Shown here in pieces: positions 6,374 to 50,360 of a stretch of 64,000 bases of DNA. Position 1 is the first letter of the stretch; each line of letters begins with the position of its first letter. The notes beneath the pieces were generated by a model. That model saw only the letters and a program-made list of their open reading frames with translations. It ran no database searches and was not told the DNA's origin. The position numbers were made by a program, and so were the translations under genes. The DNA comes from Coptis chinensis (taxonomy: Eukaryota; Streptophyta; Magnoliopsida; Ranunculales; Ranunculaceae): positions 38,537,001 to 38,601,000 of the forward strand of contig CM027378.1 in the NCBI GenBank assembly GCA_015680905.1, in the 5' to 3' direction.

Positions 6374-6386
6374 ATTTGGGGATAGT
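6374..6386 (+). other. Polypurine tract of E0p
   Basis: ATTTGGGGATAGT lies directly upstream of the LTR start TGATCAG. It is preceded by GAGGACAAGCAAAATG, the usual context before the 3' LTR in plant Athila/Tat elements. It would prime plus-strand DNA synthesis. Confidence 0.75.
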
Positions 6387-17833: not shown

Positions 17834-19343
17834 TGTCACACCCCAAATTTCCAGAAAAATTAAAACCGATATTCAATCATCCGAAACCTGTGGTGAAACA
17901 AAACCCACTAACATATTATCAACCACAATATTTAAAATCTAAGATCAAATTAAAACTGAAAGAACAACGCTTCATTTACAAATAAAATTTTTTCTAACCA
18001 ACTCTATTACCTTTGTTTCAATTCAAAACTATACACTTTCGAAAAACTTAAACCAGAAGACTCCAAGAGCAAATCCAAGTCACGTGTCTTCATCCACTGC
18101 ACTCCACCATCTATGTTTCCAAGAACACACCCACGTTGCAAAACAAAGCAAACATGGGTCAAGAAATTGAATTTCTTTGGTATGAGTAGACTAACAACAA
18201 CAAAATATATATAATAATCTTTCAAATGAATAATATAACATTACAAACAATTTCAACTTGGAAGACAATATAGTTCCGTTTTCCAAAAACGGCGTGTAGT
18301 TTCTTCCCAAGTAAGATTTCACCCCTAACATACAAATTCCAAGAATCTCATATAATAGTACTCGTCATTCCCACTTTCCAAAATAACTCACAATACAATA
18401 CCACTTACATTTCATTTATTAACTGCACCTATGATAACCTAATTAAATATGAGTTTGGTATACCTTACCTTTAAGCCAACACGTCGTCTTAGGGTAGGAT
18501 ATTTACGTCCCTGCAGAAAAGATTAATAGATCCTACCCTCCCCAGAAAACAGAGTTAGACATCACAATAAATTGATTTTATCTCACCAAAATTTCATTCA
18601 TGACCACACCTCCTTTAAGACATTTAAGTCTAATTGATATAACTCGTTTAGTCCAAGATATTCGGGAATACCACTTATCATAATACCTATGTTAAGGGTA
18701 GTCATTCATATGACATCATTACGTCATAAAGTTTTGCGTGCATAATCATAGATCTCGGACTATCACAAGTCATTAATAGTTTAAGTAATAACATATCAAG
18801 TTATAGTCATTTCACGTCACATAGAAATTACAATCATTTACTAATATTATTCACCGTCACACTTCATATCCATAACATCACACAATTCATATACTTTTAC
18901 TTTAGTATCACTCGCCTACTTATGAGAGCGAGGAAAAGTCACAACCAAGGAGTACATTCATCCCTTTGTGAGTATCAACTCATACAAACCACGTAAACAT
19001 TTATCATAAGAAATCATATACATCATATGCAATAACTCCATCACACGTAAAATCAATATTTTACTTTGCTTATTACTTATCTCGTTGACTCATTTATTCA
19101 AACCACCCAACCTTTAGTTCCTACTCCACGATTTGCACTACACACATTTGCCAAATCACACATATCCGTCGCCTCGCCACTCACACCGAAAGTACCACTA
19201 CAAGACATACGCCCCAAGCGGGATATCGCCTCCGTGAAACATACTTTCATCTTGTAAACTCAGAACTTGTGAGTCCACCCATGACCATCTCGGGCTTTCC
19301 ATACACATAATCACAAAGCTCTTTTGGGCATAACAAAATATCA

Positions 19344-19630
19344 GGTCATTCATGGCACATTCAATGAATACCTTGGGTCATTCCCGCCACATTCAAGGAA
19401 TACCCATCATAACACTAACGGGCCATTCATGGCACATTCAATAAATGCCCTGAAGTCATTCCCGCCACATTCAAGGAATACCCAAACCTACATTCCCGTA
19501 CATTCAAGGAATACGACCAACCCCAAGGCTTAATACCTTAGTTCCTCTCTAGGGTAGTCCAAACTATTGGGTCATTCATGGCACATTCAATGAATACCGG
19601 GTCATTCATGGCACATTCAATGAATACCCA
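19344..19630. repeat. Minisatellite inside array LTR (copy 1)
   Basis: About eight degenerate units of roughly 28-40 bp built on GTCATTC-TGGCACATTC then AATGAATACC, in two flavours ('catggcacattcaatgaatacc' and 'ccgccacattcaaggaatac', each written only in part). Matching blocks lie at 24734-25020, 30124-30413, 35521-35806 and 40915-41203. Confidence 0.85.
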
Positions 19631-20590
19631 TCTATCACATGACATCACAAGTCATAATATCTCATTACTAAAATCGAGGGTGGAGAGTTCTAAAGATGTG
19701 GGCGACACATTAAAACATTATTATCACTTATAATTATACTAGCATTACTCATGTCAAAATAGACCACACATGCAAAGAGTCACTTTTCGTGGCGTCAAGG
19801 CAAATCAAGCACTTAAATATCATTAAATGTAAAACGGACTTATAATCAAACAAATACAATTTATCTAACCATACTCATATATACAATATCGTAAACAAAT
19901 AGTTCATTAGCCCAAATTCAAGTCCACACACACTAATGTCTAAAACATATCCACATATACTAAAGTCTATATTCATATACAACTTCTATCTCCCACATAT
20001 ATATTTATGTAGTCTCAAAACAACAGTAATTTCTAACATAATCACATAGTTATCACACAAACTAATATATATATTATAGATATAGTGTAGTGGGCGACTT
20101 TTTGCTCAAAGTCGCGCCACGATGATCCAAATCTTTCAAGATTGGAATCAAGCCTTCGTAGTTCTTATTAGCCACATAATCAATGCTAAGGTTTTTTTCC
20201 TACATTCATCCAAATGACATGTAACTTAATTATTTAGAAACTAAGGTATTTAGATATACTTTTTTTCATGTAGAACTCGAAGTCCCAACCTTAGCCCATC
20301 TAAAAGAAAATTTAGGTTGAAAACGGTCAAAATCCTAATTTCAGAAATTGATTTCTGACGGGATATCTTTCGAATGGAACAACTCTTTTCCATTGTGTAT
20401 CCAAACGCATCGAAGCTTTTTGTGTTGCAAAGCTGACGCACAGAACTTACTTTCTCTTGTTTAACAAAAATACCCAATCATCAAGGTCAAATCTTTCTTA
20501 GATAAATGACAACCAAAGTTATACAATATCCGACAGTATTTTATTACTATATATATATCCATATAAACAAACATATGAAAAACTGGAAAA

Positions 20591-20850
20591 GTCAACATTC
20601 ACAGTCAACGGTCAAAGTCAACGGTCAACATTCAAAGTCAACAGTCAACGGTCAAAGGTCAACACCTCATGGTCAAGGTCAAACTCAACATGTCATGGTC
20701 AAAGTCAAACTGACAAAGTCAAACTGTCCAAGTCAAAGTCAAAGGTGAAAGTCAACCGTCCATGGTCAAAGGTCAAAGTCAACGGTCAAACTGTCCTTGT
20801 CAAAGTCAAACTGTCAAAGTCAAAGGTGAAAGTCAACATTCACAGTCAAT
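20591..20850 (-). promoter_or_regulatory. Dense TTGAC (W-box core) cluster in array LTR (copy 1)
   Basis: A hand count gives about 27 GTCAA pentamers on + (TTGAC on the element strand) in 260 bp, many as TTGACC/TTGACT, the core bound by WRKY factors. Matching clusters lie at 25981-26240, 31375-31636, 36769-37028 and 42164-42421. The cluster is about 1.7 kb downstream of the TATA box, so it may be an internal enhancer, an RNA-level feature or simple repeat expansion. Function is inference. Confidence 0.6.
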
Positions 20851-22719
20851 AAATGCCCACCTAACCTATGACATCAACAGTCATAAAACTTAATTCCAAA
20901 ACTTTAGACGTGGAGAGTTCTAAAAGAGTGCGGTAACTTTATTTACGCATTATTGAACTTTATTTTATATATCATTTCAGAGAACGAATGAGTATCTTGA
21001 TTCCTGTAATTTTTATTTACGCGTTATTAATTTCAGGGATGTCTTAGTGTCATAACGTTGCATATCATAAAATACTGCAAAATCACATAGTAGTTAATAC
21101 ACATACACACGTATATATATAGAGGTCTTTAATTTAAATCAAACACGTTAATAGTCCTAGACTTATCCTATTAGACCCGAATTATAATTTTAGGAAAAGT
21201 CAAATTTTGGGTCAATCCGGTCAAAGTCAACTCGGTCAACGCGGTCAACATTGGTCAACCCGACCTAAACTCCAAAACCCAAAAGCCCAAATCCTAAGGC
21301 CCATATTCTAATCTTAAAGTCAAAATTGAAATCCAAAACCACTCAAGCCCACTTACTCGAAGTCGGCCCAAGCCCAATCTAAACTTATTGTTCATAAATT
21401 ATAACTTGACCCATTTGGATTTATAAAACCAAATTTCACACAATAAAAGAAAACCGCCCATGTAAGCAAAATTAGAATCCGCCCCAACAAAATAGAACCA
21501 CCCAACTAAAACCAAAACCGGGCCCAAACCAAATAGAATTCGCCCAAGGCCCAACCGAAATAGAGTCAGATTGGTGAGATGGGGAGCACCGGATCCAAAT
21601 CGCGATCATCCCTCCACCACACGGTTCGGTTTCCGACCACCACCATCCTCCAAACCTAACCAAAATTATTCCCATCAAAACCAACAACATTTAATAAACG
21701 AAAATCCACAAATCATTCACTATGTATTCTTCATCAAACTAGATCGAATTTGGGTCGCCATTATTGGCTTCTCCGAAGCTCCACTCGACAGCCCTCATCA
21801 CTCCACCGATATCATCACAATCAATCCTAAATAAACCAACACGATCCATCCAAAAACAGTTCGAATTATTATCGAGGAAATGGGCGCGCGCCATTAATGG
21901 TGGCCGGGAGCTTTCCACAAAGACTCGCCTCCCACCGAATCTACACTCAATCCTCGCGACAATCAATTCAAGATACAACCCAAAAACAACCACCATCCAC
22001 ATTTGATCGAAACCCTTCCTCCACATTAGATGGCGCCATTGTTACTCGCTTCTGAGCTTGAAAAATTTCATCCCATCACCGACCACCAACCTCCGAAGAT
22101 TTAACCCCGACATCAATCCACAAATTTCCAACGGTTCAACAGAGAAACAAAGAAAAGTGACGAGTCCTGTCTGGCTTTGGACTCGCGACGCCATTATTGA
22201 CGAAATTCAAGCTTTGAGCGATTTTAAGTTTGAGTTTGAAAACCCGACCAAACCGAAGTTTAAACGAAACCCAAGCCGACCTCTTTTCTAACAGTTCAGC
22301 GGTTTAATCACAAATCGAAATTTAAATAAGGTTTAATAAAACAAATGGCATTTAAGTCCAACACAACAAAGATAATGAATGAGCAATATCAATACGAGAA
22401 AACCATACGTTCGGTGAAATAGCAAAATAGCTACTCACCTGTATGAACAGCTCGACGAATCCTCCTAGCCCGATTCGTCGCGCTCCAATGCTCCAGCAAA
22501 CCAGTTTCTCTCTGCCTCCATTTTTAATATATTATATTATCTTCTGAACCCTATTTTCTAGAAAAAGTGTTTATATACTTGGGTCCGAAACCCAAGCCCA
22601 ACATGAACTTCGGCCCAAAACTAGGCCCGTATCCCGAAGTCCAATCAAATTTAATTTTAAATAAATAATTTAATTAATTAATAAATATAAAAATACGTAT
22701 AAAAACACGGGGTGTTATA

Positions 22720-23221
22720 ATATACACACCTTAAAAGGATCTCGTCCCGAGATTCAAGGTAGAGAGTAGATCAACCAAGCAAACACTACGCCAAACAATA
22801 AATCTTCAAAAGCTCTAAAGTTAATGGATTATATCCCAACCACTAAGCTTCAAGAAATAATCTAAAACATGCCATCAAAATTAATTAAACATGTTATTTA
22901 TAGCTTGCACCCAAAGGTCATTGTAAACAAATATTAAAAAAAAAATATAAGTGTATACCCCAAGTATACACACCTTAAAAGGAATACACGTATACAATAT
23001 CGTGATAATCTTACATGTAGACATACGTAGATACAAACCACATAATGAGATGCACCACCCTTTAAAACAATGTATAAAACCAAAATCCAAAATGAGAACA
23101 AAACAAACATGAAAACAACATCTAAACTTAACACAAAAAATACTCTTACCACCCATTACCACAATCCGAGGGGATCACCTAGACCTTCTCATTCTAGGCT
23201 AACCTAAGCTCGATACCAAAA
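22720..23221 (-). mobile_element. Array internal segment 1
   Basis: 502 bp. The left end (element 3' side) reads TCTCGGGACGAGATCC then TTTTAAGGTGTGTATAT on the minus strand, resembling the conserved stretch before the 3' LTR in chromovirus-type gypsy elements. The right end has the primer site at 23208-23218, TGGTATCGAGC, with one base missing from the iMet consensus. No open frame. Confidence 0.8.
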
Positions 23222-26200
23222 TGTCACACCCCAAATTTTAAAAATTAAAACCGATATTCAATCATCCGAAACCCAGTGGTGAAACAAAACCCACTAACAT
23301 ATTATCAACCACAATATTTAAAATCTAAGATCAAATTAAACCGAAAGAACAACGCTTCATTTACAAATAAAATTTTTTTTCTAACCAACTCTATTACCTT
23401 TGTTTCAATTCAAAACTATACACTTTCGAAAAAACTTAAACCGTAAGACTCCAAGAGCAAATCCAAGTCACGGTCTTCATCCATCGACTCCACCATCTAT
23501 GTTTCCAAGAACACACCCACGTTGCAAAACAAAGCAAACATGGGTCGACAAATTGAATTTCTTTGGTATGAGTAGACTAACAACAAAATATATATAATAA
23601 TCTTTCAAATGAATAATATAACATTACAAACAATTTCAACTTGGAAGACAATATAGTTCCGTTTTCCAAAAACGGCGTGTAGTTTCTTCCCAAGTAAGAT
23701 TTCACCCCTAACATACAAATTCCAAGAATCTCATATAATAGTACTCGTCATTCCCACTTTCCAAAATAACTCACAATACAATACCACTTACATTTCATTT
23801 ATTAACTGCACCTATGATAACCTAATTAAATATGAGTTTGGTATACCTTACCTTTAAGCCAACACGTCGTCTTAGGGTAGGATATTTACGTCCCTGCAGA
23901 AAAGATTAATAGATCCTACCCTCCTGCAAAACAGAGTTAGACATCACAATAAATTGATTTATCTCAGCCAGTCAAAATTTCATTCATGACCACACCTCCT
24001 TTAAGACATTTAAGTCTAATTGATATAACTGGTTCGTCTCCAAGATATTCGGGAATACCACTTATCATAATACCTATGTTAAGGGTAGTCATTCATATGA
24101 CATCATTACGTCATAAAGTTTCTGCGTGCATAATCATAGATCTCAGACTATCACAAGTCATTAATAGTTTCGTAATAACATATCAAGTTATAGTCATTTC
24201 ACAGTCACATAGAAATTACAATCATTTACTAATATTATTCACCATCACACACTTCATATCCATAACATCACACAATTCATATACTTTTACTTTAGTATCA
24301 CTCGCCTACTTATGAGAACGAGAAAAAAGTCACAACCAAGGAGTACATTCATCCCTTGTGAGTATCAACTCATACAAACCACGTAAACATTTATCATAAG
24401 AAATCATATACATCATATGCAATATACTCCATCACACGTAAAATCAATATTTTACTTTGCTTATTACTTATCTCGTTGACTCATTTATTCAAAAGACACA
24501 TCCAACCTTTAGTTCCTACTCCACGATTTTGCACACTACACACATTTGCCAAATCACACATATCCGTATCTCACTCACACACCGAAAGTACCACTACAAG
24601 ACATCGCCCCAAGGGATATCGCCTCCGTGAAACATACTTTCATCTTGTAAACTCAGAACTTGTGAGTCACGACCATCTCTGGGCTTTCCATACACATAAT
24701 CACAAAGCCTCTTTTGGGCATAACAAAATATCAGGTCATTCATGGCACATTCAATGAATACCTTGGGTCATTCCCGCCACATTCAAGGAATACCCATCAT
24801 AACACTAACGGGCCATTCATGGCACATTCAATAAATGCCCTGAGTCATTCCCGCCACATTCAAGGAATACCCAAACCTACATTCCCGTACATTCAAGGAA
24901 TACGACCAACCCGCAAGGCGAATACCTTAGTTCCTCTCTAGGGTAGTCCAAACTATTGGGTCATTCATGGCACATTCAATGAATACCCGGGTCATTCATG
25001 GCACATTCAATGAATACCCATCTATCACATGACATCACAAGTCATAATATCTCATTACTAAATCCTGAGGCGTGGAGAGTTCTAAAGATGTGGGCGACAC
25101 ATTAAAACATTATTATCACTTATAATTATACTAGCATTACTCATGTCAAAATAGACCACACATGCAAAGAGTCACTTTCGCGCGTCAAGGCAAATCAAGC
25201 ACTTAAATATCATTAAATGTAAACAGACTTATAATCAAACAAATACAATTTATCTAACCATACTCATATATACAATATCGTAAACAAATAGTTCATTAGC
25301 CCAAATTCAAGTCCACACACACTAATGTCTAAAACATATCCACATATACTAAAGTCTATATTCATATACAACTTCTATCTCCCACATATATATTTATGTA
25401 GTCTCAAAACAACAGTAATTTCTAACATAATCACATAGTTATCACACAAACTAATATATATATTATAGATATAGTGTAGTGGTCGTGACTTTTGCTCAAA
25501 GTCGCCTAATGATCCAAATCTTTCAAGATTGGAATCAAGCCTTCGTAGTTCTTATTAGCCACATAATCAATGCTAAGGTTTTTTTCCTACATTCATCCAA
25601 ATGACATGTAACTTAATTATTTAGAAACTAAGGTATTTAGATATACTTTTTCATGTAGAACTCGAAGTCCCAACCTTAGCCCATCTAAAAGAAAAATTTA
25701 GGTTGAAAACGGTCAAAATCCTAATTTCAAAGAAATGGATTTTCGCCGGGATATCTTTCAAATGGAACAACTCTTTTCCACGTGTATCCAAAACGATCAA
25801 GCTTTTTTGTGTTAAAAAAGCCGACGCCATTTAACTTACTTTCTCTTGTTTAACAAAAATACCCAATCATTAAGGTCAAATCTTTCTTAGATAAATGACA
25901 ACCAAAGTTATACAATATCCGACGAAGATTTTATTACTATATATATATCCATATAAACAAACATATAAAAAACTGGAAAAGTCAACATTCACAAATAACG
26001 GGCCAAAGTCAACGGTCAACATTCAAAGTCAACAGTCAACGGTCAAAGGTCAACACCTCATGGTCAAGGTCAAACTCAACATGTCATGGTCAAAGTCAAA
26101 CTGACAAAGTCAAACTGTCCAAGTCAAAGTCAAAGGTGAAAGTCAAGATCCATGGTCAAAGGTCAAAGTCAACGGTCAAACTGTCCTTGTCAAAGTCAAA

Positions 26201-28124
26201 CTGTCAAAGTCAAAGGTGAAAGTCAACATTCACAGTCAATAAATGCCCACCTAACCTATGACATCAACAGTCATAAAACTTAATTCCAAAACTTTAGACG
26301 TGGAGAGTTCTAAAAGAGTGCGGTAACTTTATTTACGCATTATTGAACTTTATTTTATATATCATTTCAGAGAACGAATGAGTATCTTGATTCCTGTAAT
26401 TTTTATTTACGCGTTATTAATTTCAGGGATGTCTTAGTGTCATAACGTTGCATATCATAAAATACTGCAAAATCACATAGTAGTTAATACACATACACAC
26501 GTATATATAGAGGTCTTAGCCAGAAATCAAACACGTTAATAGTCCTAGACTTATCCTATTAGACCGAATTATAATTTTAGGAAAAAGTCAAATTTTGGGT
26601 CAATCCTGGTCAAAGTCAACTCTGGTCAACAGTCGACATTGGTCAACCCGACCTAAACTCCAAAACCCAAAAGCCCAAATCCTAAGGCCCATATTCTAAT
26701 CTTAAAGTCAAAATTGAAATCCAAAAACCACTCAAGCCCACTTTACGAAGCCGCCCTAAGCCCAATCTAAACTTACTGTTCATAAATTATAACTTGACCC
26801 ATTTGGATTTATAAAACCCCACACAATAAAAGAAAACCGCCCATGTAAGCAAAATTAGAACGCCCCAACAAAATAGAACCGACCCAACTAAAACCAAAAC
26901 GGGGCCCAAACCAAATAGAATTCGCCCAAGGCCCAACCGAAAATAGAGTTGCATTGGTGAGATGGGGGACCTTTGGATCCAAATCGCAGTCATCCCTCCC
27001 ACACCATCCCGGTTCGGTTTTCACCACCACCATCCTCCAAACCTAACCAAAATTACTCCCCATCAAAACCAACAACATTTAATAAACGCAAAATCCACAA
27101 ATCATTCACTATGTATTCTTCATCAAACTAGATCTCAATTTCGGTCGCCATTATTGGCTTCTCCGAGCTCCACTCGGCGACCCTCATCACTCCACCGATA
27201 TCACCACAATCAATCCTAAATAAACCAACACGATCCATCAAAAACAGTTCAATTATTATCGAGGAATGGGCGTGCCGCCATTAATGGTGGCGGGAGCTTT
27301 CCACAAAGACTCACCTACCCTCCCCACTAATCTACACTCAATCCCTCGCGACAATCAATTCAAGATACAACCCAAAACAACCACCATCCACATTTGATCG
27401 AACCCTTCCTCCACATTAGATGGCGCCGCCATTGTTATTTACTCGCTCTGAGCTTGAGCAAATTTCATCCCATCACCGACCACCAACCTCCAAGATTTAA
27501 ACCCCCCGACATCAATCCACAAATTTCCAGCGGTTCAACAGAGAAACAAAGAAAAGTGACGAGTCCTTGTTGCCGGACTCATGCGGACGCTTATCGATTA
27601 ATGAAGCTTCGAGCTTGAAGCTTTTAAGTTTGAGTTTCAAAACCACCACCAAACCGAAGTTTAAACGAAACCCAAGCCGACCTCTTTTCTAACAGTTCAA
27701 CAGCGGTTTAATCACAAAACGAAATTTAAATAAGGTTTAATAAAACAAATGGCACGAAGTCCAACACAACAAGATAATGAGCGATATCAATATACACGAG
27801 AAAACCATACGTTGGTGAAATAGCAAAGCAAAATAGCTACTCACTCAGATGAACAACTCGACGATTTAATCCTCCTAGCCCGATTCGTCGGCCCAATGCT
27901 CCAAACAAACGGTTTCCATTTTTCCATTTTTAATATATTATATTATCTTTCAACCCTATTTTCTAGAAAAAGTGTTTATATACTTGGGTCCGAAACCCAA
28001 GCCCAACACAGACTCGGGCCCAAAACTAGGCCCACGTATCCCGAGTCCAATCCGACGAATTTTAAATAAATAATTTAATTAATTAATAAATATAAAAATA
28101 CGTATAAAAACACGGGGTGTTATA
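23222..28124 (-). repeat. Array LTR copy 2
   Basis: 4903 bp, same termini as copy 1. TATA box 27982-27976, TTGAC cluster 25981-26240, minisatellite 24734-25020. Non-coding. Confidence 0.85.
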
Positions 28125-28622
28125 ATATACACACCTTAAAAGGATCTCGTCCCGAGATTCAAGGTAGAGAGTAGATCAACCAAGCAAACACTACGCCAAA
28201 CAATAAATCTTCAAAAGCTCTAAAGTTAATGGATTATATCCCAACCACTAAGCTTCAAGAAATAATCTAAAACATGCCATCAAAATTAATTAAACATGTT
28301 ATTTATAGCTTGCACCCAAAGGTCATTGTAAACAAATATAAAAAAAATATAAGTGTATACCCCAAGTATACACACCTTAAAAGGAATACACGTATACAAT
28401 ATCGTATAATCTTACATGTAGACATACGTAGATACAAACCACATAATGAGATGCACCACCCTTTAAAACAATGTATAAAACCAAAATCCAAAATGAGAAC
28501 AAAACAAACATGAAAACAACATCGAAACTTAACACAAAAAAATACTCTTACCACCCATTACCACAATCCGAGGATCACCTAGACCTTCTCATTCTAGGCT
28601 AACCTAAGCTCTGATACCAAAA
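28125..28622 (-). mobile_element. Array internal segment 2
   Basis: 498 bp. Intact primer-binding site TGGTATCAGAGC (complement of 28608-28619), matching the 3' end of initiator methionine tRNA, three bases from the LTR end at 28623. The chromovirus-like pre-LTR signature is at the left end. Non-coding. Confidence 0.85.
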
Positions 28623-31600
28623 TGTCACACCCCAAATTTCCAGAAAAATTAAAACTGATATTCAATCATCTGGAAACCCAGGGTGAAACAAAACCCACTA
28701 ACATATTATCAACCACAATATTTAAAATCTAAGATCAAATTAAAACTGAAAGAACAACGCTTCATTTACAAATAAAATTTTTTCTAACCAACTCTATTAC
28801 CTTTGTTTCAATTCAAAACTATACACTTCAAAAAAACTTAAACCGTAAGACTCCAAGAGCAAATCCAAGTCACGTGTCTTCATCCACCGACTCCACCATC
28901 TATGTTTCCAAGAACACACCCACGTTGCAAAACAAAGCAAACATGGGTCAGCAAATTGAATTTGCTGGTATGAGTAGACTAACAACAAAATATATATAAT
29001 AATCTTTCAAATGAATAATATAACATTACAAACAATTTCAACTTGGAAGACAATATAGTTCCGTTTTTCCAAAAAGCGGTGTAGTTTCTTCCCAAGTAAG
29101 ATTTCACCCCTAACATACAAATTCCAAGAATCTCATATAATAGTACTTTCGTCATTCCCACTTTCCAAAATAACTCACAATACAATACCACTTACATTTC
29201 ATTTATTAACCTGCACCTATGATAACCTAATTAAATATGAGTTTGGTATACCTTACCTTTAAGCCAACACGCCGCCTTAGGGTAGGATATTTACGCCCCT
29301 TGAGAAAAGATTAATAGATCCTACCCTCCCAGAAAACAGAGTTAGACATCACAATAAATTGATTTATCTCACCAAAATTTCATTCATGACCACACCTCCT
29401 TTAAGACATTTAAGTCTAATTGATATAACTGGTTCGTCCAAGATATAGGGGAATACCACTTATCATAATACCTATGTTAAGGGTAGTCATTCATATGACA
29501 TCATTACGTCATAAAGTTTTCAAGTGCATAATCATAGATCTCGGACTATCACAAGTCATTAATAGTTTCAGTAATAACATATCAAGTTATAGTCATTTCC
29601 GCAGTCACATAGAAATTACAATCATTTACTAATATTATTTCGTCACACTTCATATCCATAACATCACACAATTCATATACTTTTACTTTAGTATATCACT
29701 CGCCTACTTATGAGAACGAGGAAAAGTCACAACCAAGGAGTACATTCATCCCTTGTGAGTATCAACTCATACAAACCACGTAAACATTTATCATAAGAAA
29801 TCATATACATCATATGCAATAACTCCATCACACGTAAAATCAATATTTTACTTTGCTTATTACTTATCTCGTTGACTCATTTATTCAAAGACCACCAACC
29901 TTTAGTTCCTACTCCACGATTTGCACTACACACATTTGCCAAATCACACATATCCGTCGCTTCACTCACACCGAAAGTACCACTACAAGACATACGCCCC
30001 AAGGGATATCGCCTCCGTGAAACATACTTTCATCTTGTAAACTCGAACTTGTGAGTCATGACCATCTCTCGGGCTTTCCATACACATAATCACAAAGCCT
30101 CTTTTGGGCATAACAAAATATCAGGTCATTCATGGCACATTCAATGAATACCTTGGGTCATTCCCGCCACATTCAAGGAATACCCATCATAACACTAACG
30201 GGCCATTCATGGCACATTCAATAAATGCCCTGAGTCATTCCCGCCACATTCAAGGAATACCCAAACCTACATTCCCGTGACATTCAAGGAATACGACCAA
30301 CCCGGCAAAGGCTTAATACCTTAGTTCCTCTCTAGGGTAGTCCAAACTATTGGGTCATTCATGGCACATTCAATGAATACCCGGGTCATTCATGGCACAT
30401 TCAATGAATACCCATCTATCACATGACATCACAAGTCATAATATCTCATTACTAAATCCTGAGGCGTGGAGTTCTAAAGATGTGGGCTTACACATTAAAA
30501 CATTATTATCACTTATAATTATACTAGCATTACTCATGTCAAAATAGACCACACATGCAAAAAGAGTCACTTTCGTCACAAGGCAAATCAAGCACTTAAA
30601 TATCATTAAATGTAAAGCGGACTTATAATCAAACAAATACAATTTATCTAACCATACTCATATATACAATATCGTAAACAAATAGTTCATTAGCCCAAAT
30701 TCAAGTCCACACACACTAATGTCTAAAACATATCCACATATACTAAAGTCTATATTCATATACAACTTCTATCTCCCACATATATATTTATGTAGTCTCA
30801 AAACAACAAGTAATTTCTAACATAATCACATAGTTATCACACAAACTAATATATATATTATAGATATAGTGTAGTGGGTGCACTTTTGCTCAAAGTCGCC
30901 ACGATCCAAATCTTTCAAGATTGGAATCAAGCCTTCAGTAGTTCTTATTAGCCACATAATCAATGCTAAGGTTTTTTCCTACATTCATCCAAATGACATG
31001 TAACTTAATTATTTAGAAACTAAGGTATTTAGATATACTTTTTTCATGTAGAACTTCGAAGTCCCAACCTTAGCCCATCTAAAAGAAAATTTAGGTTGAA
31101 AACGGTCAAAAAATCCTAATTTCAAAGAAATTGGATTTCGGACGGGATATCTTTCAAATGGAACAACTCTTTCCATTGGGTATCCAAACGATGAAGCTTT
31201 TTGTGTTGCAAAGCTAATTTTACACATAACTTACTTTCTCTTGTTTAACAAAAATACCCAATCATTAAGGTCAAATCTTTCTTAGATAAATGACAACCAA
31301 AGTTATACAATATCCGACAGTATTTTATTACTATATATATATCCATATAAACAAACATATGAAAAACTGGAAAAGTCAACATTCACAGTCAACGGTCAAA
31401 GTCAACGGTCAACATTCAAAGTCAACAGTCAACGGTCAAAGGTCAACACCTCATGGTCAAGGTCAAACTCAACATGTCATGGTCAAAGTCAAACTGACAA
31501 AGTCAAACTGTCCAAGTCAAAGTCAAAGGTGAAAGTCAACCGTCCATGGTCAAAGGTCAAAGTCGGCGGTCAAACCGTGTCTTGTCAAAGTCAAAACAAT

Positions 31601-33500
31601 CAAAGTCAAAGGTGAAAGTCAACATTCACAGTCAATAAATGCCCACCTAACCTATGACATCAACAGTCATAAAACTTAATTCCAAAACTTTAGACGTGGA
31701 GAGTTCTAAAAGAGTGCGGTAACTTTATTTACGCATTATTGAACTTTATTTTATATATCATTTCGAGAACGAATGAGTATCTTGATTCCTGTATTTTTTA
31801 TTTACGCGTTATTAATTTCAGGGATGTCTTAGTGTCATAACGTTGCATATCATAAAATACTGCAAAATCACATAGTAGTTAATACACATACACACGTATA
31901 TATAGAGGTCTTAGCCAGAAATCAAACACGTTAATAGTCCTAGACTTATCCTATTAGACCGAATTATAATTTTAGGAAAAGTCAAATTTTGGGTCAATCC
32001 CGGTCAAAGTCAACTCGTCAATAAATGCATTGGTCAACCCGACCTAAACTCCAAAACCCAAAAGCCCAAATCCTAAGGCCCATATTCTAATCTTAAAGTC
32101 AAAATTGAAATCCAAAAACCACTCAAGCCCACTTACCTGAGTCGGCCCAAGCCCAATCTAAACTTATCGTTCATAAAATTATAACTGACCCATTTGGATT
32201 TATAAAACCAAGCCCACACAATAAAAGAAAACCGCCCATGTAAGCAAAATTAGAAGCCCCCAACAAAATAGAACCGAACCCAACTAAAACCAAAACCGGG
32301 CCAAAACAAATAGAATTCGCCCAAGGCCCAACCGAAATAGAGTTGCATTGGTGAGATGATGGGGAGCGATGGATCCAAATCGCGATCATCCCTCCACTAC
32401 ACCACCGGTTTCCACACCACCATCCTCCAAACCTAACCAAAATTACTCCCCATCAAAACCAACAACATTTAATAAACGCGAAAATCCACAAATCATTCAC
32501 TATGTATTCTTCATCAAACTAGATCTCAATTTCGAACGCCATTATTGCTTTCTCGAGAAGCTCCACTCGACAGCCCCTCATCACTCCACCCGATATCACC
32601 ACAATCAATCCTAAATAAACCAACACGATCCATCCAAAAACGAGTTCAATTATTATCGAGGAATGGGCGTGCCGCCATTAATGGCTGGGGGGAGCTTTCC
32701 ACAAAGACTCCACGCCCTCCCCACTAATCTACACTCAATCCACCGCGACAATCAATTCAAGATACAACAAAAAACAACCACCATCCACATTTGATCGAAC
32801 CCTTCCTCCACATTAGATGGCGCGCCATTGTTATGCTTCTGAGCTTGAGCTTGAATTTCATCCCATCACCGACCACCAACCTCCGATTTTAACCCCCGAC
32901 ATCAATCCACAAATTTCCAACGGTTCAACAGAGAAACAAAGAAAAGTGACGAGTCCTTGCTTCTTTGGACTCATGACGACGCCATTGACGAAGCTCGAAG
33001 CTTGAACGGCTTTAAGTTGAGTTTGAAAACCACGACCAAACCGAAGTTTAAACGAAACCCAAGCCGACCTCTTTTCTAACAGCGGTTTAATCACAAACCA
33101 AATTTAAATAAGGTTTAATAAAACAAATGGCACGAAGTCCAACACAACAAAATATAATGAATAAAAGATCAATACACGAGAAAACCATACGCGGTGAAAT
33201 AGCAAAATAGCTACTCACTGTATGATGAACTTTCGACGAATCCTCCTAGCCGATTCGTCGGGCCCAATGCTCCAAACAAACCCGGTTTCTCTCTGCCTCC
33301 ATTTTTAATATATTATATTATCTTCTGAACCCTATTTTCTAGAAAAAGTGTTTATATACTTGGGTCCGAAACCCAAGCCCAACACAGACTCGGGCCCAAA
33401 ACTAGGCCCACGTATCCCGAGTCCAATCCGACGAATTTTAAATAAATAATTTAATTAATTAATAAATATAAAAATACGTATAAAAACACGGGGTGTTATA
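28623..33500 (-). repeat. Array LTR copy 3
   Basis: 4878 bp. TATA box 33358-33352, TTGAC cluster 31375-31636, minisatellite 30124-30413. In its TTGAC cluster, 'gtcggcggtcaaaccgtgtc' replaces the phrase of copy 1, a short CG-rich local difference. Confidence 0.85.
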
Positions 33501-33998
33501 ATATACACACCTTAAAAGGATCTCGTCCCGAGATTCAAGGTAGAGAGTAGATCAACCAAGCAAACACTACGCCAAACAATAAATCTTCAAAAGCTCTAAA
33601 GTTAATGGATTATATCCCAACCACTAAGCTTCAAGAAATAATCTAAAACATGCCATCAAAATTAATTAAACATGTTATTTATAGCTTGCACCCAAAGGTC
33701 ATTGTAAACAAATATAAAAAAAATATAAGTGTATACCCCAAGTATACACACCTTAAAAGGAATACACGTATACAATATCGTATAATCTTACATGTAGACA
33801 TACGTAGATACAAACCACATAATGAGATGCACCACCCTTTAAAACAATGTATAAAACCAAAATCCAAAATGAGAACAAAACAAACATGAAAACAACATCG
33901 AAACTTAACACAAAAAAATACTCTTACCACCCATTACCACAATCCGAGGATCACCTAGACCTTCTCATTCTAGGCTAACCTAAGCTCTGATACCAAAA
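33501..33998 (-). mobile_element. Array internal segment 3
   Basis: 498 bp. Primer site TGGTATCAGAGC at 33984-33995 (complement). By eye it is almost identical to internal segment 2. Confidence 0.85.
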
Positions 33999-36900
33999 TG
34001 TCACACCCCAAATTTCCAGAAAAATTAAAACTGATATTCAATCATCTGGAAACCCAGGGTGAAACAAAACCCACTAACATATTATCAACCACAATATTTA
34101 AAATCTAAGATCAAATTAAAACTGAAAGAACAACGCTTCATTTACAAATAAAATTTTTTCTAACCAACTCTATTACCTTTGTTTCAATTCAAAACTATAC
34201 ACTTTCGAAAAACTTAAACCAGAAGACTCCAAGAGCAAATCCAAGTCACGTGTCTTCATCCATCGTGACTCCACCATCTATGTTTCCAAGAACACACCCA
34301 CGTTGCAAAACAAAAAGCAAACATGGGTCAACAAATTGAATTTCTTTGGTATGAGTAGACTAACAACAAAATATATATAATAATCTTTCAAATGAATAAT
34401 ATAACATTACAAACAATTTCAACTTGAAGACAATATAGTTCCGTTTTTTCCAAAACGGCGGTGTAGTTTCTTCCCAAGTAAGATTTCACCCCTAACATAC
34501 AAATTCCAAGAATCTCATATAATAGTACTTTCGTCATTCCCACTTTCCAAAATAACTCACAATACAATACCACTTACATTTCATTTATTAACTGCACCTA
34601 TGATAACCTAATTAAATATGAGTTTGGTATACCTTACCTTTAAGCCAACACGCCGTCTTAGGGTAGGATATTTACGCCCTCGCAGAAAAGATTAATAGAT
34701 CCTACCCTCCGCAAAACAGAGTTAGACATCACAATAAATTGATTTATCTCACCCGGTCAAAATTTCATTCATGACCACACCTCCTTTTAAGACATTTAAG
34801 TCTAATTGATATAACTGGTTCGTCCAAGATATTCGGGAATACCACTTATCATAATACCTATGTTAAGGGTAGTCATTCATATGACATCATTACGTCATAA
34901 AGTTTCTGCGTGCATAATCATAGATCTCAGACTATCACAAGTCATTAATAGTTTCGTAATAACATATCAAGTTATAGTCATTTCACAAACCACATAGAAA
35001 TTACAATCATTTACTAATATTATTCACCGTCACACTTCATATCCATAACATCACACAATTCATATACTTTTACTTTAGTATCACTCGTCTACTTATGAGA
35101 ACGAGGAAAAGTCACAACCAAGGAGTACATTCATCCCTTGTGAGTATCAACTCATACAAACCACGTAAACATTTATCATAAGAAATCATATACATCATAT
35201 GCAATAACTCCATCACACGAAAAATCAATATTTTACTTTGCTTATTACTTATCTTGTTGACTCATTTATTCAAAGACACAGCCCAACCTTTAGTTCCTAC
35301 TCCACGATTTTGCACTACACACATTTGCCAAATCACACATATCCGTCGCCTTTCACTCACACCGAAAGTACCACTACAAGACATACGTCCCAAGCGGGAT
35401 ATCGCCTCCGTGAAACATACTTTCATCTTGTAAACTCGTAACTTGTGAGTCACGGCCCATCTCTCGGGCTTTCCATACACATAATCACAAAGCCTCTCTT
35501 TTGGGCATAACAAAATATCAGGTCATTCATGGCACATTCAATGAATACCTTGGGTCATTCCCGCCACATTCAAGGAATACCCATCATAACACTAACGGGC
35601 CATTCATGGCACATTCAATAAATGCCCTGAGTCATTCCCGCCACATTCAAGGAATACCCAAACCTACATTCCCGTACATTCAAGGAATACGACCAACCCG
35701 CAAGGCGAATACCTTAGTTCCTCTCTAGGGTAGTCCAAACTATTGGGTCATTCATGGCACATTCAATGAATACCCGGGTCATTCATGGCACATTCAATGA
35801 ATACCCATCTATCACATGACATCACAAGTCATAATATCTCATTACTAAATCCTGAGGCGTGGAGAGTTCTAAAGATGTGGGGCTTACACATTAAAACATT
35901 ATTATCACTTATAATTATACTAGCATTACTCATGTCAAAATAGACCACACATGCAAAGAGTCACTTTCAAGGCGTCAAGGCAAATCAAGCACTTAAATAT
36001 CATTAAATGTAAACAGACTTATAATCAAACAAATACAATTTATCTAACCATACTCATATATACAATATCGTAAACAAATAGTTCATTAGCCCAAATTCAA
36101 GTCCACACACACTAATGTCTAAAACATATCCACATATACTAAAGTCTATATTCATATACAACTTCTATCTCCCACATATATATTTATGTAGTCTCAAAAC
36201 AACAGTAATTTCTAACATAATCACATAGTTATCACACAAACTAATATATATATTATAGATATAGTGTAGTGGCTGACTTTTGCTCAAAGTCGCCTTTTCG
36301 TGATCCAAATCTTTCAAGATTGGAATCAAGCCTTCGTAGTTCTTATTAGCCACATAATCAATGCTAAGGTTTTTTTCCTACATTCATCCAAATGACATGT
36401 AACTTAATTATTTAGAAACTAAGGTATTTAGATATACTTTTTTTCATGTAGAACTCGAAGTCCCAACCTTAGCCCATCTAAAAGAAAATTTAGGTTGAAA
36501 ACGGTCAAAATCCTAATTTCAAAGAAATGGATTTCTGACGGGATATCTTTCAAATGGAACAACTCTTTCCACAGGTATCCAAACGCATCGAAGCTTTTTG
36601 TGTTGCAAAGCTGACGCACAGAACTTACTTTCTCTTGTTTAACAAAAATACCCAATCATTAAGGTCAAATCTTTCTTAGATAAATGACAACCAAAGTTAT
36701 ACAATATCCGACAGTATTTTATTACTATATATATATCCATATAAACAAACATATGAAAAACTGGAAAAGTCAACATTCACAGTCAACGGTCAAAGTCAAC
36801 GGTCAACATTCAAAGTCAACAGTCAACGGTCAAAGGTCAACACCTCATGGTCAAGGTCAAACTCAACATGTCATGGTCAAAGTCAAACTGACAAAGTCAA

Positions 36901-38903
36901 ACTGTCCAAGTCAAAGTCAAAGGTGAAAGTCAACCGTCCATGGTCAAAGGTCAAAGTCAACGGTCAAACTGTCCTTGTCAAAGTCAAACTGTCAAAGTCA
37001 AAGGTGAAAGTCAACATTCACAGTCAATAAATGCCCACCTAACCTATGACATCAACAGTCATAAAACTTAATTCCAAAACTTTAGACGTGGAGAGTTCTA
37101 AAAGAGTGCGGTAACTTTATTTTACGATTATTGAACTTTATTTTATATATCATTTCGAGAACGAATGAGTATCTTGATTCTCGTAATTTTTATTTTGGCG
37201 TTATTAATTTAGGGGATGTCTTAGTGTCATAACGTTGCATATCATAAAATACTGCAAAATCACATAGTAGTTAATACACATACACACGTATATATAGAGG
37301 TCTTAGCCAGAAATCAAACACGTTAATAGTCCTAGACTTATCCTATTAGACCGAATTATAATTTTAGGAAAAGTCAAATTTTGGGTCAATCCCGGTCAAA
37401 GTCAACTTCGGTCAAATCGACATTGGTCAACCCGACCTAAACTCCAAAACCCAAAAGCCCAAATCCTAAGGCCCATATTCTAATCTTAAAGTCAAAATTG
37501 AAATCCAAAACCACTCAAGCCCACTTACCTCGAAGTCGCCCAAGCCCAATCTAAACTTACTTGTTCATAAATTATAACTTGACCCATTTGGATTTATAAA
37601 ACCCAGCCCACAATAAAAGAAAACCGCCCATGTAAGCAAAATTAGAACTGCCCCAACAAAATAGAACCGAATCCAACTAAAACCAAAACCGGCCCAAACC
37701 AAATAGAATTCGCCCAAGGCCCAACCGAAATAGAGTCAGATTGGTGAGATGGGGAGCTTTGGATCCAAATCGCGGTCATCCCCCTCCACCACACCCCGTT
37801 CACCACCACCACCCCATCCTCCAAACCTAACCAAAATTACTCCCCATCAAAACCAACAACATTTAATAAACGAAAATCCACAAATCATTCACTATGTATT
37901 CTTCATCAAACTAGATCTCAATTTCGGGAACGCCATTATTGGCTTCTCCGAGCTCCACTCGGCGACCCTCATCACTCCACCGATATCACCACAATCAATC
38001 TAAAAATAAACCAACACGATCCATCCAAAAACGGTTCGAATTATTATCGAGGAATGGGCGTGCGCCATTAATGGTCTGGCTGGGGAGCTTTCACAAAGAC
38101 TCACAACCCCTCCCCACGAATCTACACTCAATCCCTCGCGACAATCAATTCAAGATACAACCCAAAACAACCACCATCCACATTTGATCGAACCCTTCCT
38201 CCACATTAGATGGCGCCGCCATTGTTACTCGCTTCTGAGCTTGAAAAATTTCATCCCATCACCGACCACCAACCTCCAAGATTTAACCCCGACATCAATC
38301 CACAAATTTCCAACAGTTCAACAGAGAAACAAAGAAAAGTGACGAGTCCTTGCTCTTTGGACTCGCGACGCCATTGACGAAGTCAAGCTTGAGCGATTTT
38401 TAAGTTAAGAGTTTTGAAAACCACGACCAAACCGAAGTTTAAACGAAACCCAAGCCGACCTCTTTTTCTAACAGTTCAGCGGTTTAATCACAAATCGAAA
38501 TTTAAATAAGGTTTAATAAAACAAATGGCACGAAGTCCAACACAACAAGATAATGAAGCGATATCAATACACGAGAAAACCATACGCTCGGTGAAATAGC
38601 AAAATAGCTACTCACATCAGATGAATATTTCGACGAATCCTCCTAGCCCGATTCGTTGGCTCTCCAATGCTCCAACAAAACCCGGTTTCTCTCGCCTCCA
38701 TTTTTAATATATTATATTATCTTCTGAACCCTATTTTCTAGAAAAAGTGTTTATATACTTGGGTCCGAAACCCAAGCCCAACACAGACTCGGGCCCAAAA
38801 CCAGGCCCACGTAACCCGAGTCCAATCCGACGAATTTTTAAAATAAACAATTAAATTAATTAATTAAATAGAAAAATACGTATAAAAAACACGGGGTGTT
38901 ATA
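33999..38903 (-). repeat. Array LTR copy 4
   Basis: 4905 bp. TATA box 38757-38751, TTGAC cluster 36769-37028, minisatellite 35521-35806. Its last 80 bases differ slightly from the other copies (AATTAAATTAATTAATTAAATAG region). Confidence 0.85.
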
Positions 38904-39400
38904 ATATACACACCTTAAAAGGATCTCGTCCCGAGATTCAAGGTAGAGAGTAGATCAACCAAGCAAACACTACGCCAAACAATAAATCTTCAAAAGCTCT
39001 AAAGTTAATGGATTATATCCCAACCACTAAGCTTCAAGAAATAATCTAAAACATGCCATCAAAATTAATTAAACATGTTATTTATAGCTTACACCCAAAG
39101 GTCATTGTAAACAAATATAAAAAAATATAAGTGTATACCCCAAGTATACACACCTTAAAAGGAATACACGTATACAATATCGTATAATCTTACATGTAGA
39201 CATACATAGATACAAACCACATAATGAGATGCACCACCCTTTAAAACAATGTATAAGACCAAAATCCAAAATGAGAACAAAACAAACATGAAAACAACAT
39301 TGAAACTTAACACAAAAAATACTCTTACCACCCATTACCATTAATCCGAGGATCACCTAGACCTTCTCATTCTAGGCTAACCTAAGCTCTGATACCAAAA
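38904..39400 (-). mobile_element. Array internal segment 4
   Basis: 497 bp. Primer site TGGTATCAGAGC at 39386-39397 (complement). Carries a few single-base differences (for example 'ttacaccc' near 39089, 'tacatagata' near 39204) that look like ordinary substitutions. Confidence 0.85.
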
Positions 39401-42400
39401 TGTCACACCCCAAATTTCCAGAAAAATTAAAACTGATATTCAATCATCTCGAAACCCAGGGTGAAACAAAACCCACTAACATATTATCAACCACAATATT
39501 TAAAATCTAAGATCAAATTAAACCTGAAAGAACAACGCTTCATTTACAAATAAAATTTTTTTTCTAACCAACTCTATTACCTTTGTTTCAATTCAAAACT
39601 ATACACTTTCGAAAAAAACTTAAACCGTAAGACTCCAAGAGCAAATCCAAGTCACGTGTCTTCATCCATCGTGACTCCACCATCTATGTTTCCAAGAACA
39701 CACCCACGTTGCAAAACAAAGCAAACATGGGTCAGCAAATTGAATTTGCTGGTATGAGTAGACTAACAACAAAATATATATAATAATCTTTCAAATGAAT
39801 AATATAACATTACAAACAATTTCAACTTGGAAGACAATATAGTTCCGTTTTTCCAAAAAACGGGTGTAGTTTCTTCCCAAGTAAGATTTCACCCCTAACA
39901 TACAAATTCCAAGAATCTCATATAATAGTACTCGTCATTCCCACTTTCCAAAATAACTCACAATACAATACCACTTACATTTCATTTATTAACTGCACCT
40001 ATGATAACCTAATTAAATATGAGTTTGGTATACCTTACCTTTAAGCCAACACGTCGTCTTAGGGTAGGATATTTACGTCCCTGCAGAAAAGATTAATAGA
40101 TCCTACCCTCCTGCAAAACAGAGTTAGACATCACAATAAATTGATTTATCTCAGCCAGTCAAAATTTCATTCATGACCACACCTCCTTTAAGACATTTAA
40201 GTCTAATTGATATAACCTGGTTCGTCCCGCATATTCGGGGAATACCACTTATCATAATACCTATGTTAAGGGTAGTCATTCATATGACATCATTACGTCA
40301 TAAAGTTTCTGCGTGCATAATCATAGATCTCAGACTATCACAAGTCATTAATAGTTTCGTAATAACATATCAAGTTATAGTCATTTCACAGTCACATAGA
40401 AATTACAATCATTTACTAATATTATTCACCGTCACACTTCATATCCATAACATCACACAATTCATATACTTTTACTTTTAGTATCTTTCGCCTACTTATG
40501 AGAACGAGGAAAAGTCACAACCAAGGAGTACATTCATCCCTTGTGAGTATCAACTCATACAAACCACGTAAACATTTATCATAAGAAATCATATACATCA
40601 TATGCAATAACTCCATCACACGTAAAATCAATATTTTACTTTGCTTATTACTTATCTCGTTGACTCATTTATTCAAAGACACAGCCCAACCTTTTAGTTC
40701 CTACTCCACGATTTGCACTACACACATTTGCCAAATCACACATATCCGTCGCCTTCACTCACACCGAAGTACCACTACAAGACATACGCCCCAAGCGGGA
40801 TATCGCCTCCGTGAAACATACTTTCATCTTGTAAACTCAGACTTTGTGAGTCACCATCTCTCGGGCTTTCCATACACATAATCACAAAGCCTCTTTTGGG
40901 CATAACAAAATATCGGTCATTCATGGCACATTCAATGAATACCTTGGGTCATTCCCGCCACATTCAAGGAATACCCATCATAACACTAACGGGCCATTCA
41001 TGGCACATTCAATAAATGCCCCGAAGTCATTCCCGCCACATTCAAGGAATACCCAAACCTACATTCCAGGTACATTCAAGGAATACGACCAACCCGCAAG
41101 GCTTAATACCTTAGTTCCTCTCTAGGGTAGTCCAAACTATTGGGTCATTCATGGCACATTCAATGAATACCGGGTCATTCATGGCACATTCAATGAATAC
41201 CCATCTATCACATGACATCACAAGTCATAATATCTCATTACTAAATCTCGAGGCGTGGAGAGTGGAAAGTTGTAAAGATGACACATTAAAACATTATTAT
41301 CACTTATAATTATACTAGCATTACTCATGTCAAAATAGACCACACATGCAAAAGACTTTTCGGCGTCACAAGGCAAATCAAGCACTTAAATATCATTAAA
41401 TGTAAACAGACTTATAATCAAACAAATACAATTTATCTAACCATACTCATATATACAATATCGTAAACAAATAGTTCATTAGCCCAAATTCAAGTCCACA
41501 CACACTAATGTCTAAAACATATCCACATATACTAAAGTCTATATTCATATACAACTTCTATCTCCCACATATATATTTATGTAGTCTCAAAACAACAGTA
41601 ATTTCTAACATAATCACATAGTTATCACACAAACTAATATATATATTATAGATATAGTGTAGTGGCTGCACTTTTGCTCAAAGCTGCCTACGTATCCAAA
41701 TCTTTCAAGATTGGAATCAAGCCTTCGTAGTTCTTATTAGCCACATAATCAATGCTAAGGTTTTTTTCCTACATTCATCCAAATGACATGTAACTTAATT
41801 ATTTAGAAACTAAGGTATTTAGATATACTTTTTTTCATGTAGAACTCGAAGTCCCAACCTTAGCCCATCTAAAAGAAAATTTAGGTTGAAAACGGTCAAA
41901 ATCCTAATTTCAGCAAATTGGATTTCTGACGGGATATCTTTCAAATGGAACAACTCTTTCCGGGTATCCAAACGATCGTGAAGCTTTTTTGTGTTGCAAA
42001 GCCGACGCACGTATTTAACTTACTTTCTCTTGTTTAACAAAAATACCCAATCATTAAGGTCAAATCTTTCTTAGATAAATGACAACCAAAGTTATCAATA
42101 TCCGGCCGATTTTATTACTATATATATATCCATATAAACAAACAAACATATGAAAACCGAAAAGTCAACATTCACAGCGGTCGGTCAAAGTCAATCGGTC
42201 AACATTCAAAGTCAATAATCGGTCAAAGGTCAACACCTCATGGTCAAGGTCAAACTCAACATGTCATGGTCAAAGTCAAACTGACAAAGTCAAACTGTCC
42301 AAGTCAAAGTCAAAGGTGAAAGTCAACCGTCCATGGTCAAAGGTCAAAGTCAACGGTCAAACCGTGTCTTGTCAAAGTCAAATGTCAAAGTCAAAGGTGA

Positions 42401-44302
42401 AAGTCAACATTCACAGTCAATAAATGCCCACCTAACCTATGACATCAACAGTCATAAAACTTAATTCCAAAACTTTAGACGTGGAGAGTTCTAAAAGAGT
42501 GCGGTAACTTTATTTACGCATTATTGAACTTTATTTTATATATCATTTCGAGAGAACGAATGAGTATCTTGATTCTCGTAATTTTTATTTACGCTGGCGT
42601 TATTAATTTGAGGGGATGTCTTAGTGTCATAACGTTGCATATCATAAAATACTGCAAAATCACATAGTAGTTAATACACATACACACGTATATATAGAGG
42701 TCTTAGCCAGAAATCAAACACGTTAATAGTCCTAGACTTATCCTATTAGACCGAATTATAATTTTAGGAAAAAGTCAAATTTTGGGTCAATCCTGGTCAA
42801 AGTCAACTCTGGTCAACAGTCGACATTGGTCAACCCGACCTAAACTCCAAAACCCAAAAGCCCAAATCCTAAGGCCCATATTCTAATCTTAAAGTCAAAA
42901 TTGAAATCCAAAAACCACTCAAGCCCACTTACCTGAGTCGGCCCAAGCCCAATCTAAACTTACTGTTCATAAATTATAACTTGACCCATTTGGATTTATA
43001 AAACCAGCCCACACAATAAAAGAAAACCGGCCCATGTAAGCAAAATTAGAACTGCCCCAACAAAATAGAACCGACCCAACTAAAACCAAAACCGGCCCAA
43101 ACCAAATAGAATTCGCCCAAGGCCCAACCGAAATAGAGTTGCATTGGTGAGATGGGGAGCTTTGGATCCAAATCGCAGATCATCCCTCCACCACACGGTT
43201 CGGTTTCGACCACCACCATCCTCCAAACCTAACCAAAATTACTCCCCATCAAAAACCAACAACATTTAATAAACGAAAATCCACAAATCATTCACTATGT
43301 ATTCTTCATCAAACTAGATCTCAATTTGGTCGCCATTATTGGCTTCTCCGAGCTCCACTCGGCGACCCTCATCACTCCACCGATATCACCACAATCAATC
43401 CTAAATAACCAACCAACACGATCCATCCAAAACGGTTCGAATTATTATCGAGGAATGGGCGTGCGCCATTAATGGTCTTTGGGAGCTTTCCACAACGGCA
43501 CTCCTCCCCTCCCCGCGAATCTACACTCAATCCTCGCGACAATCAATTCGCGATACAACCCAAAACAACCACCATCCACATTTGATCGAACCCTTCCTCC
43601 ACATTAGAGATATTTTGCCATTGTTTTCTTCTGAGCTTGAGCATTTCATCCCATCACCGACCACCAACCTCCGATTTTAAACCCCCGACATCAATCCACA
43701 AATTTCCAGCGGTTCAACAGAGAAACAAAGAAAAGTGACGAGTCCTTGCTAGCTTTGGACTCGCTGACGCTTACCATTACGAAGCTCGAAGCTTGAGCGG
43801 CTTAAGTTGAGTTTGAAAACCACGACCAAAACCGAGTTTAAACGAAACCCAAGCCGACCTCTTTTCTAACAGTTCAACAGGTTTAATCACAAACCGAAAT
43901 TTAAATAAGGTTTAATAAAACAAATGGCACGAAGTCCAACACAACAAGATATAATGAAGCGAGATCAATAATACACGAAAACCACGCGTTGGGTGAAATA
44001 GCAAAAAATAGCTACTCAATTGTATGAGCAATTTCGGACGAATCCTCCTAGCCCGATTCGTCGCGCTCCAATGCTCCAGCAAACCAGTTTCTCTCTGCCT
44101 CCATTTTTAATATATTATATTATCTTCTGAACCCTATTTTCTAGAAAAAGTGTTTATATACTTGGGTCCGAAACCCAAGCCCAACACAGACTCGGGCCCA
44201 AAACTAGGCCCACGTATCCCGAGTCCAATCCGACGAATTTTAAATAAATAATTTAATTAATTAATAAATATAAAAATACGTATAAAAACATGGGGTGTTA
44301 TA
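39401..44302 (-). repeat. Array LTR copy 5 (rightmost, 5' LTR of the block)
   Basis: 4902 bp. TATA box 44160-44154, TTGAC cluster 42164-42421, minisatellite 40915-41203. Its right end GGGGTGTTATA is followed directly by the second TSD copy CGCGC, which fixes the element end and shows the TA terminus is real here. Confidence 0.87.
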
Positions 44303-44503
44303 CGCGCTCTATGCAAGGCAAAAGGGAGGGTGGGCACGCTCTTAGTGTGAAACAGTGAATTTCAAGCTTGAACAGTAACGAAAATTTGAGAAGAAAGAAT
44401 GAAAAATTAAAAGGGTGGGTGGTTAGAGAATGGGGGATTGCCCCTTGGATTCAACCAATTGAATTCTTGTCCTAAATGAGTTTAAGATGGCAGTGACGCC
44501 ATT
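44303..44503 (-). other. E1 leader remainder and primer-binding site
   Basis: PBS-proximal part of the E1 leader. The complement of 44486-44501 reads TGGCGTCACTGCCATC, close to the tRNA-Asp-type PBS of Athila elements (TGGCGCCGTTGCC). It is separated from the LTR at 44504 by two bases. Another GC-rich phrase (gtgggcacgctc) lies near 44330. Confidence 0.75.
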
Positions 44504-45909: not shown

Positions 45910-46176
45910 GACATCCATCTTTGGTTTTATTAGTTGAGGGCTTTGACCTTTGACTTTGACTTTTTCAGCACTTTTTCATAGCAACTTCTGGTCTTCATAA
46001 TAAGCGTGATTAAGCCTCCTTTTGGTTCTAAGATGTAGCTTTTATGATAAGTGGTCTAAATTTCTCTGTAACCAGAAAATGACAATAAAAGCTATGAGTT
46101 ATCTTTTCATTAAACGTAAGAAGGGGTATAATGTAGTAATATAAGGGTAATAAAATGCATATTTGCGAGCTGATCA
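45910..46176 (-). mobile_element. E0m LTR, right part
   Basis: Continues the LTR broken at 9296. GACAT at 45910-45914 is the second TSD copy of E1. It begins (element sense) TGATCAGCTCG at 46176, matching the E0p LTR start TGATCAGTCC. Confidence 0.75.
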
Positions 46177-50348: not shown

Positions 50349-50360
50349 ATATGGGCGACT

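Follow-up and report, generated by a model that had tools for sequence, protein, structure and literature searches.

The window, i.e. the whole stretch of 64,000 nucleotides analysed here, carries a tandem LTR-retrotransposon array of 26,469 bp (17834-44302), in which self-comparison of the assembled sequence reveals five LTRs alternating with four internal segments (ints). An earlier note on this DNA had described five LTRs of ~4.9 kb and four ints of ~0.5 kb running head to tail, and this layout is borne out with exact boundaries (LTRs of 4878-4905 bp, ints of 497-502 bp). The array is oriented on the minus strand, which corrects that first reading. Its period is direct and strict (5.38-5.41 kb across 17834-44302 in self-comparison), colinear self-matches of 21.4, 15.9, 10.5, and 5.0 kb occur at offsets of one to four periods, respectively, and there are no N letters in the window. 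The array consists of the following features:

17829-17833, left TSD, CGCGC
17834-22719, minus strand, LTR1, 4886 bp, outermost 3' LTR in element orientation
22720-23221, minus strand, int1, 502 bp, primer site short of one base
23222-28124, minus strand, LTR2, 4903 bp
28125-28622, minus strand, int2, 498 bp, identical to int3
28608-28619, minus strand, primer-binding site TGGTATCAGAGC in int2
28623-33500, minus strand, LTR3, 4878 bp
33501-33998, minus strand, int3, 498 bp
33984-33995, minus strand, primer-binding site TGGTATCAGAGC in int3
33999-38903, minus strand, LTR4, 4905 bp
38904-39400, minus strand, int4, 497 bp, the odd one among the four ints
39386-39397, minus strand, primer-binding site TGGTATCAGAGC in int4
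39401-44302, minus strand, LTR5, 4902 bp, outermost 5' LTR in element orientation
44303-44307, right TSD, CGCGC

All four LTR-to-int junctions read GTGTTATA followed by ATATACACACC, and all four int-to-LTR junctions read CAAAA followed by TGTCAC. Because the four junctions of each type are alike, none has a TSD of its own, and the earlier claim of a TSD at the outer ends only is confirmed, with CGCGC outside and no TSD at any of the eight inner junctions checked. With an LTR at both ends, shared inner LTRs, and one TSD, the array has the structure of a tandem LTR-retrotransposon; it is limited to five LTRs and four ints and is thus no satellite in the sense of a long homogeneous array of many monomers.

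The primer-binding site TGGTATCAGAGC was found three times (at most one mismatch allowed) against 0.21 expected and lies 3 nt from the 5' LTR in int2 to int4, giving these three ints the primer site of an LTR retrotransposon; one base of it is missing in int1. We take this motif to fit the initiator tRNA-Met. On the minus strand the LTR begins with TATAACACCCC and ends with GGGGTGTGACA, the int end opposite the primer site contains GGGACGAGATCCTTTTAAGG, which presumably resembles the 3' end of Tekay elements, and beside the 3' LTR, where a polypurine tract would lie, only a weak purine stretch was seen by eye. Stop-to-stop frames of at least 100 aa number 12 in the array, the longest reaching 131 aa, and searches of the window with Rfam (gathering threshold) and for tRNAs gave no match. 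The U3 att site of the array, TATAACACCC, agrees at nine of ten positions with the Del site TGTAACACCC, which is given as the commonest U3 att site of maize and sorghum Del (Tekay) in PMC4029996. Given the end motifs, the primer site, and the lack of any frame longer than 131 aa, we would call the element non-autonomous and Tekay/Del-like, as judged from its sequence. TRIMs have short LTRs of about 100-250 bp and a short, non-coding interior; the ints of ~500 bp found here come with LTRs of 4.9 kb, which sets the array apart from that class. LARDs have LTRs of about 4-5 kb, a size class that the array shares together with its non-autonomous nature, but their non-coding interior is about 3.5 kb long instead of 0.5 kb. 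Sukkula is an element called LARD (PMC7215508).

The surroundings of the array contain remains of other elements, of which the following concern the insertion site:

9296-10659, minus strand, left copy of a 1.36-kb direct repeat, possibly an LTR of the target element
14465-15139, minus strand, aspartyl-protease region (PF13650, E 6.2e-05, 24.1 bits, slightly below the cut-off of 24.3)
44503-45858, minus strand, right copy of the 1.36-kb direct repeat, possibly the 5' LTR of the target element

The two repeat copies are 92.6% identical and a primer-site-like stretch adjoins the right one. Because no TSD was found for this pair, we infer rather than observe the nesting: the array apparently sits inside another, minus-strand Ty3/gypsy element, to which the aspartyl-protease region probably belongs. 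No empty insertion site of the array was found within the window. The segments 13910-16712 and 59521-62333, which are 77-83% alike, in the same orientation, and ~45.6 kb apart, are diverged gag-protease copies of a Ty3/gypsy element, one of them near the array insertion and the other carrying the gag domain PF03732. Among the 120 listed of 3352 relatives of the gag-protease frame in this second copy, most are gag-protease proteins and the organisms, where given, are flowering plants only. We assume this gag-protease element to be Athila-like. Outside the array, an inverted 1.3-kb repeat (80%; 5193-6476 and 46087-47417) flanks it on both sides, and a minus-strand frame at 49837-50406 with a zinc-binding reverse-transcriptase domain (PF13966) is probably a LINE remnant.

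The search for further two-LTR and multi-LTR copies that the earlier note had proposed was successful, as simple copies (L2I1, six with TSD), three-LTR arrays (L3I2, arrays A and B), and another five-LTR array (L5I4, on C6) were all found in the genome. The best 40 of 1220 int candidates comprised the four focal ints, two each from arrays A and B, and 32 non-neighbouring ones, i.e. arrays at three of 35 loci; ten of the 32 single-int loci were read over 20 kb, none with a second int. A perfect 5-bp TSD occurs at both outer ends of nine out of nine loci (the focal array, arrays A and B, and six simple copies), a comparison that left out the C6 array, with one end cut, and four of the ten single-int loci, with the second LTR cut, rearranged, or unmatched. 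The TSDs of the six simple copies are CTTGG, GCAGC, GTGGT, TATAT, GTCAG, and ATAAG. Array A (C5:11.70 Mb) is bounded by GGAAT, and array B (C5:27.34 Mb), with a shortened middle LTR, by the homopolymer GGGGG. Four matches on C6, spaced 4159, 8297, and 4148 bp, were among the best 40 of 2133 candidates for the LTR right end, and the region (C6:36.002-36.028 Mb) contains five right ends of LTRs, of which four lead into the start of an int and the last into flanking sequence. One int there, 1148 bp long, was read with its primer site up to where the following LTR begins; the positions of both LTR ends put the LTR at 3000 bp, and the reading covered these parts of the units. In the outer LTR the first ~206 bp are missing next to a CACTA-like end, and no TSD could be demonstrated for the C6 array. 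The C6 locus is a second L5I4 array, from a related subfamily. Simple, three-LTR, and five-LTR states thus coexist in the same genome, so the focal array is not unique.

Raw divergence is 4.8-5.5% among the five LTRs and 0-1.4% among the ints. Clusters of at least three hold 706 of the 774 variable LTR columns, and variability is concentrated at CG sites (461 of 1131 columns at most 2 bp from a CG vs 32 of 1113 at more than 20 bp). A CG is present in 68 of the 84 clusters, compared with a mean of 38 (largest 51) over 300 random placements, and the clusters are garbled, with indels, and often recur at the same place in several LTRs, each differing. LTR pairs of five simple copies vary likewise (0.20-0.27 near CG vs 0.03-0.08 beyond 20 bp); the sixth, which has short LTRs, is without CG clustering (three of 44 variable columns clustered), and the 1.36-kb flank repeat, serving as a control, has a weaker rise at CG (15 of 103 vs 59 of 830, with 47 of 100 columns clustered). 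The CG-centred clusters are probably errors of the consensus at methylated CG, in a family that is young and present in many copies. Dating by the raw LTR divergence of ~5% was rejected since the differences are mostly clustered at CG, and because such differences dominate LTR divergence, LTR dating of this family in the present assembly would come out inflated. Isolated variable columns (ungapped, the nearest other variable column being more than 5 bp away) amount to 11 of 5069, which is a lower limit on true LTR divergence and no measure of it; their small number suggests that the array is young.

At 211 aligned columns the five LTRs have a letter in common that occurs in none of 13 LTRs from six other loci, and their non-CG divergence (10-bp margin) is 1.3-2.0% among themselves vs at least 6.55% to the 13 others. 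Private shared columns number 16-132 in the five simple copies and 129 in array A. The 211 private columns together with the low mutual divergence mark the five LTRs as one lineage, which would trace back to a single insertion or a single source molecule. Within this lineage, LTR columns 2609 (G to A) and 2729 (C to T) are derived in LTR2 to LTR5, LTR1 having the state of all 13 other LTRs, and int column 372 is derived in int1 to int3, with G in int4 and 12 of 14 other ints; both ints of array B have T. None of the 13 LTRs and none of the 14 ints has the respective derived states, those compared being few of thousands of candidates. These three nested private changes and the identity of int2 and int3 match what stepwise exchange of right with left LTRs predicts, the order resting on three sites of which 2609 lies at a CG. 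Two of the 11 isolated columns conflict with it, column 33 grouping LTR1 with LTR2 and column 945 grouping LTR2, LTR4, and LTR5. Both lie at CG and either state occurs in other copies; these columns, and the many mutually contradictory two-against-three patterns seen in 124 variable columns clear of gaps, are treated as noise.

A further pattern concerns the right end of the LTRs, where six linked changes in the last ~105 bp (plus strand) form a haplotype common to LTR1, LTR2, LTR3, and LTR5. At these columns LTR4 instead agrees with between 11 and 13 of the 13 other LTRs, and its divergent tract reaches from the right end into int4. The haplotype recurs at 98% in the related subfamily (C8, C6), where its letters were read, so the array appears to be a mosaic of two right-end haplotypes, produced either by later conversion or by mixed templates before integration. 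An origin of the haplotype inside the array, as proof of homogenisation, was dropped because of this 98% match at other loci. At locus L020, an older, diverged family LTR (1363-3417; 79% at the right end) has a partial right-end haplotype and lies 1.7 kb from a younger copy.

The single outer TSD, the uniform inner junctions, and the 211 private columns support a single insertion that has become a multi-LTR chain. The earlier note had left open whether one insertion was amplified or a concatemer integrated; the single insertion stands, and the three nested private changes favour growth in place without proving it. We give a somewhat better than even chance to one insertion that grew in place by unequal LTR exchange, plus conversion. 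An LTR retrotransposon with LTRs of 4.9 kb and an interior of 0.5 kb would have inserted once in minus orientation, creating the CGCGC duplication. Because a single copy is ~95% LTR, misaligned pairing of the right LTR with the left one could then occur between sister chromatids or between homologues. Every unequal exchange of this kind would insert further int-LTR units while the outer TSD stayed as it was, and the partner would end up shortened or as a solo LTR. Two or three such rounds would lead to L5I4. An exchange that duplicates a left int would leave the inner LTRs with left and middle portions taken from the rightmost LTR, and int1 to int3 would stem from one int. Exchange alone does not give a haplotype that is present in both outermost LTRs but absent from LTR4; later ectopic conversion may have supplied the right end of LTR4 and int4 with common-family sequence.

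Mixed pre-integration templates would explain this mosaic as well, because the haplotype occurs in the related subfamily, and both haplotypes are present elsewhere in the genome. They would fit a ready-made concatemer that integrated once with one TSD, arising by read-through transcription of a one-LTR circle or a different array, by template switching between co-packaged RNAs, or by cDNA recombination. Such a concatemer would equally leave one outer TSD and none inside, a circle route has been proposed (PMC11899658), and Cassandra transcripts of two to five units are reported in PMC7215508. The derived states at 2609 and 2729, absent from all 13 other LTRs, and at the int column, absent from all 14 other ints, speak against it, within a comparison of few of thousands of candidates. 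It would also need a cDNA of 26 kb. To our knowledge, this far exceeds known element cDNAs, and we regard the concatemer as rather unlikely. A simple or L3I2 copy expanded by the assembler is less likely still: the noise in the assembled copies of this family speaks for it and only reads could confirm the number of units, but the garbling differs from LTR to LTR, LTR1 and int4 have real variants of their own, there is no N, and three further regular arrays exist in the genome. Independent nested insertions, or recombination between two neighbouring ones, are refuted by the identical inner junctions without TSD and by the common lineage of the five LTRs; no evidence in their favour was found and we consider them extremely improbable. 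Because the family holds simple, three-LTR, and five-LTR states together, growth in place and a concatemer could be told apart by comparison of accessions.

Tandem LTR-retrotransposons are common in plants, with 266 in a rice pangenome, an enrichment of Tekay (82% of the gypsy tandems in Nipponbare), and an origin for which both recombination and tandem transcripts are considered; at one rice locus, haplotypes of tandem, single, and solo-LTR form occur (PMC11899658). The array described here resembles them in its alternating LTRs and ints, shared LTRs, and one short TSD, and one of them lies within another TE, as apparently here. The two rice loci given in detail, however, comprise three LTRs with two ints, and coding domains are present in the 28 selected tandems, unlike the 0.5-kb interior of our array (PMC11899658). 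TA-TRIMs are found in 35 of 43 genomes, and L3I2 is the commonest form in maize with 63 of 93 arrays, according to PMC4717578. The same paper describes maize Zma-SMART, which is likewise L5I4 with one TSD (ATAAT) and a short interior, but measures 862 bp by its coordinates vs 26.5 kb here with 4.9 kb for each LTR. Cassandra arrays are likewise LTR-int chains, and the Cassandra search pattern includes TGGTATCAGAGC, the primer motif of our array; their LTRs are short and 5S-bearing, unlike those in the window with no Rfam match, and up to 13 LTRs and 12 ints were reached by PCR (PMC7215508). The earlier note had called the array unusual, which holds for its size but not for its form, given the published L5I4 of Zma-SMART, the second L5I4 array on C6, the longer Cassandra chains, and the commonness of tandems. 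This type of array is already known in plants and the present one is notable for its size, its LTR-dominated build, and the similar arrays in the same genome. It extends the L5I4 form from a TRIM below 1 kb to 26 kb; an L5I4 array of 26-kb size was not found in the literature on tandem arrays, within a search that left most subscription papers outside.

More generally, LTR-dominated plant retroelements might be recurrent array formers, as at least two L5I4 and two L3I2 arrays from related subfamilies in one genome could hint, by way of single insertions, nested exchange, and conversion between subfamilies. We put this forward only tentatively and think it doubtful; if true, the LTR fraction would set the rate of array growth, and through such arrays a dispersed element would be able to turn into a macrosatellite. 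Satellites that arose from tandem repeats within Ogre elements are known (PMC7004042). The idea in the earlier note that the array could seed a satellite found no direct support, and no array with more than four ints was present in the part of the family seen.

A minor observation concerns the ints themselves, each of which contains a 19-base TATACACACCTTAAAAGGA stretch twice, with the copies 240-244 bp apart and one of them at the LTR border. In int1 they lie at 22721-22739 and 22965-22983, and the pair is perhaps a duplicated 3' border of the ancestral interior.
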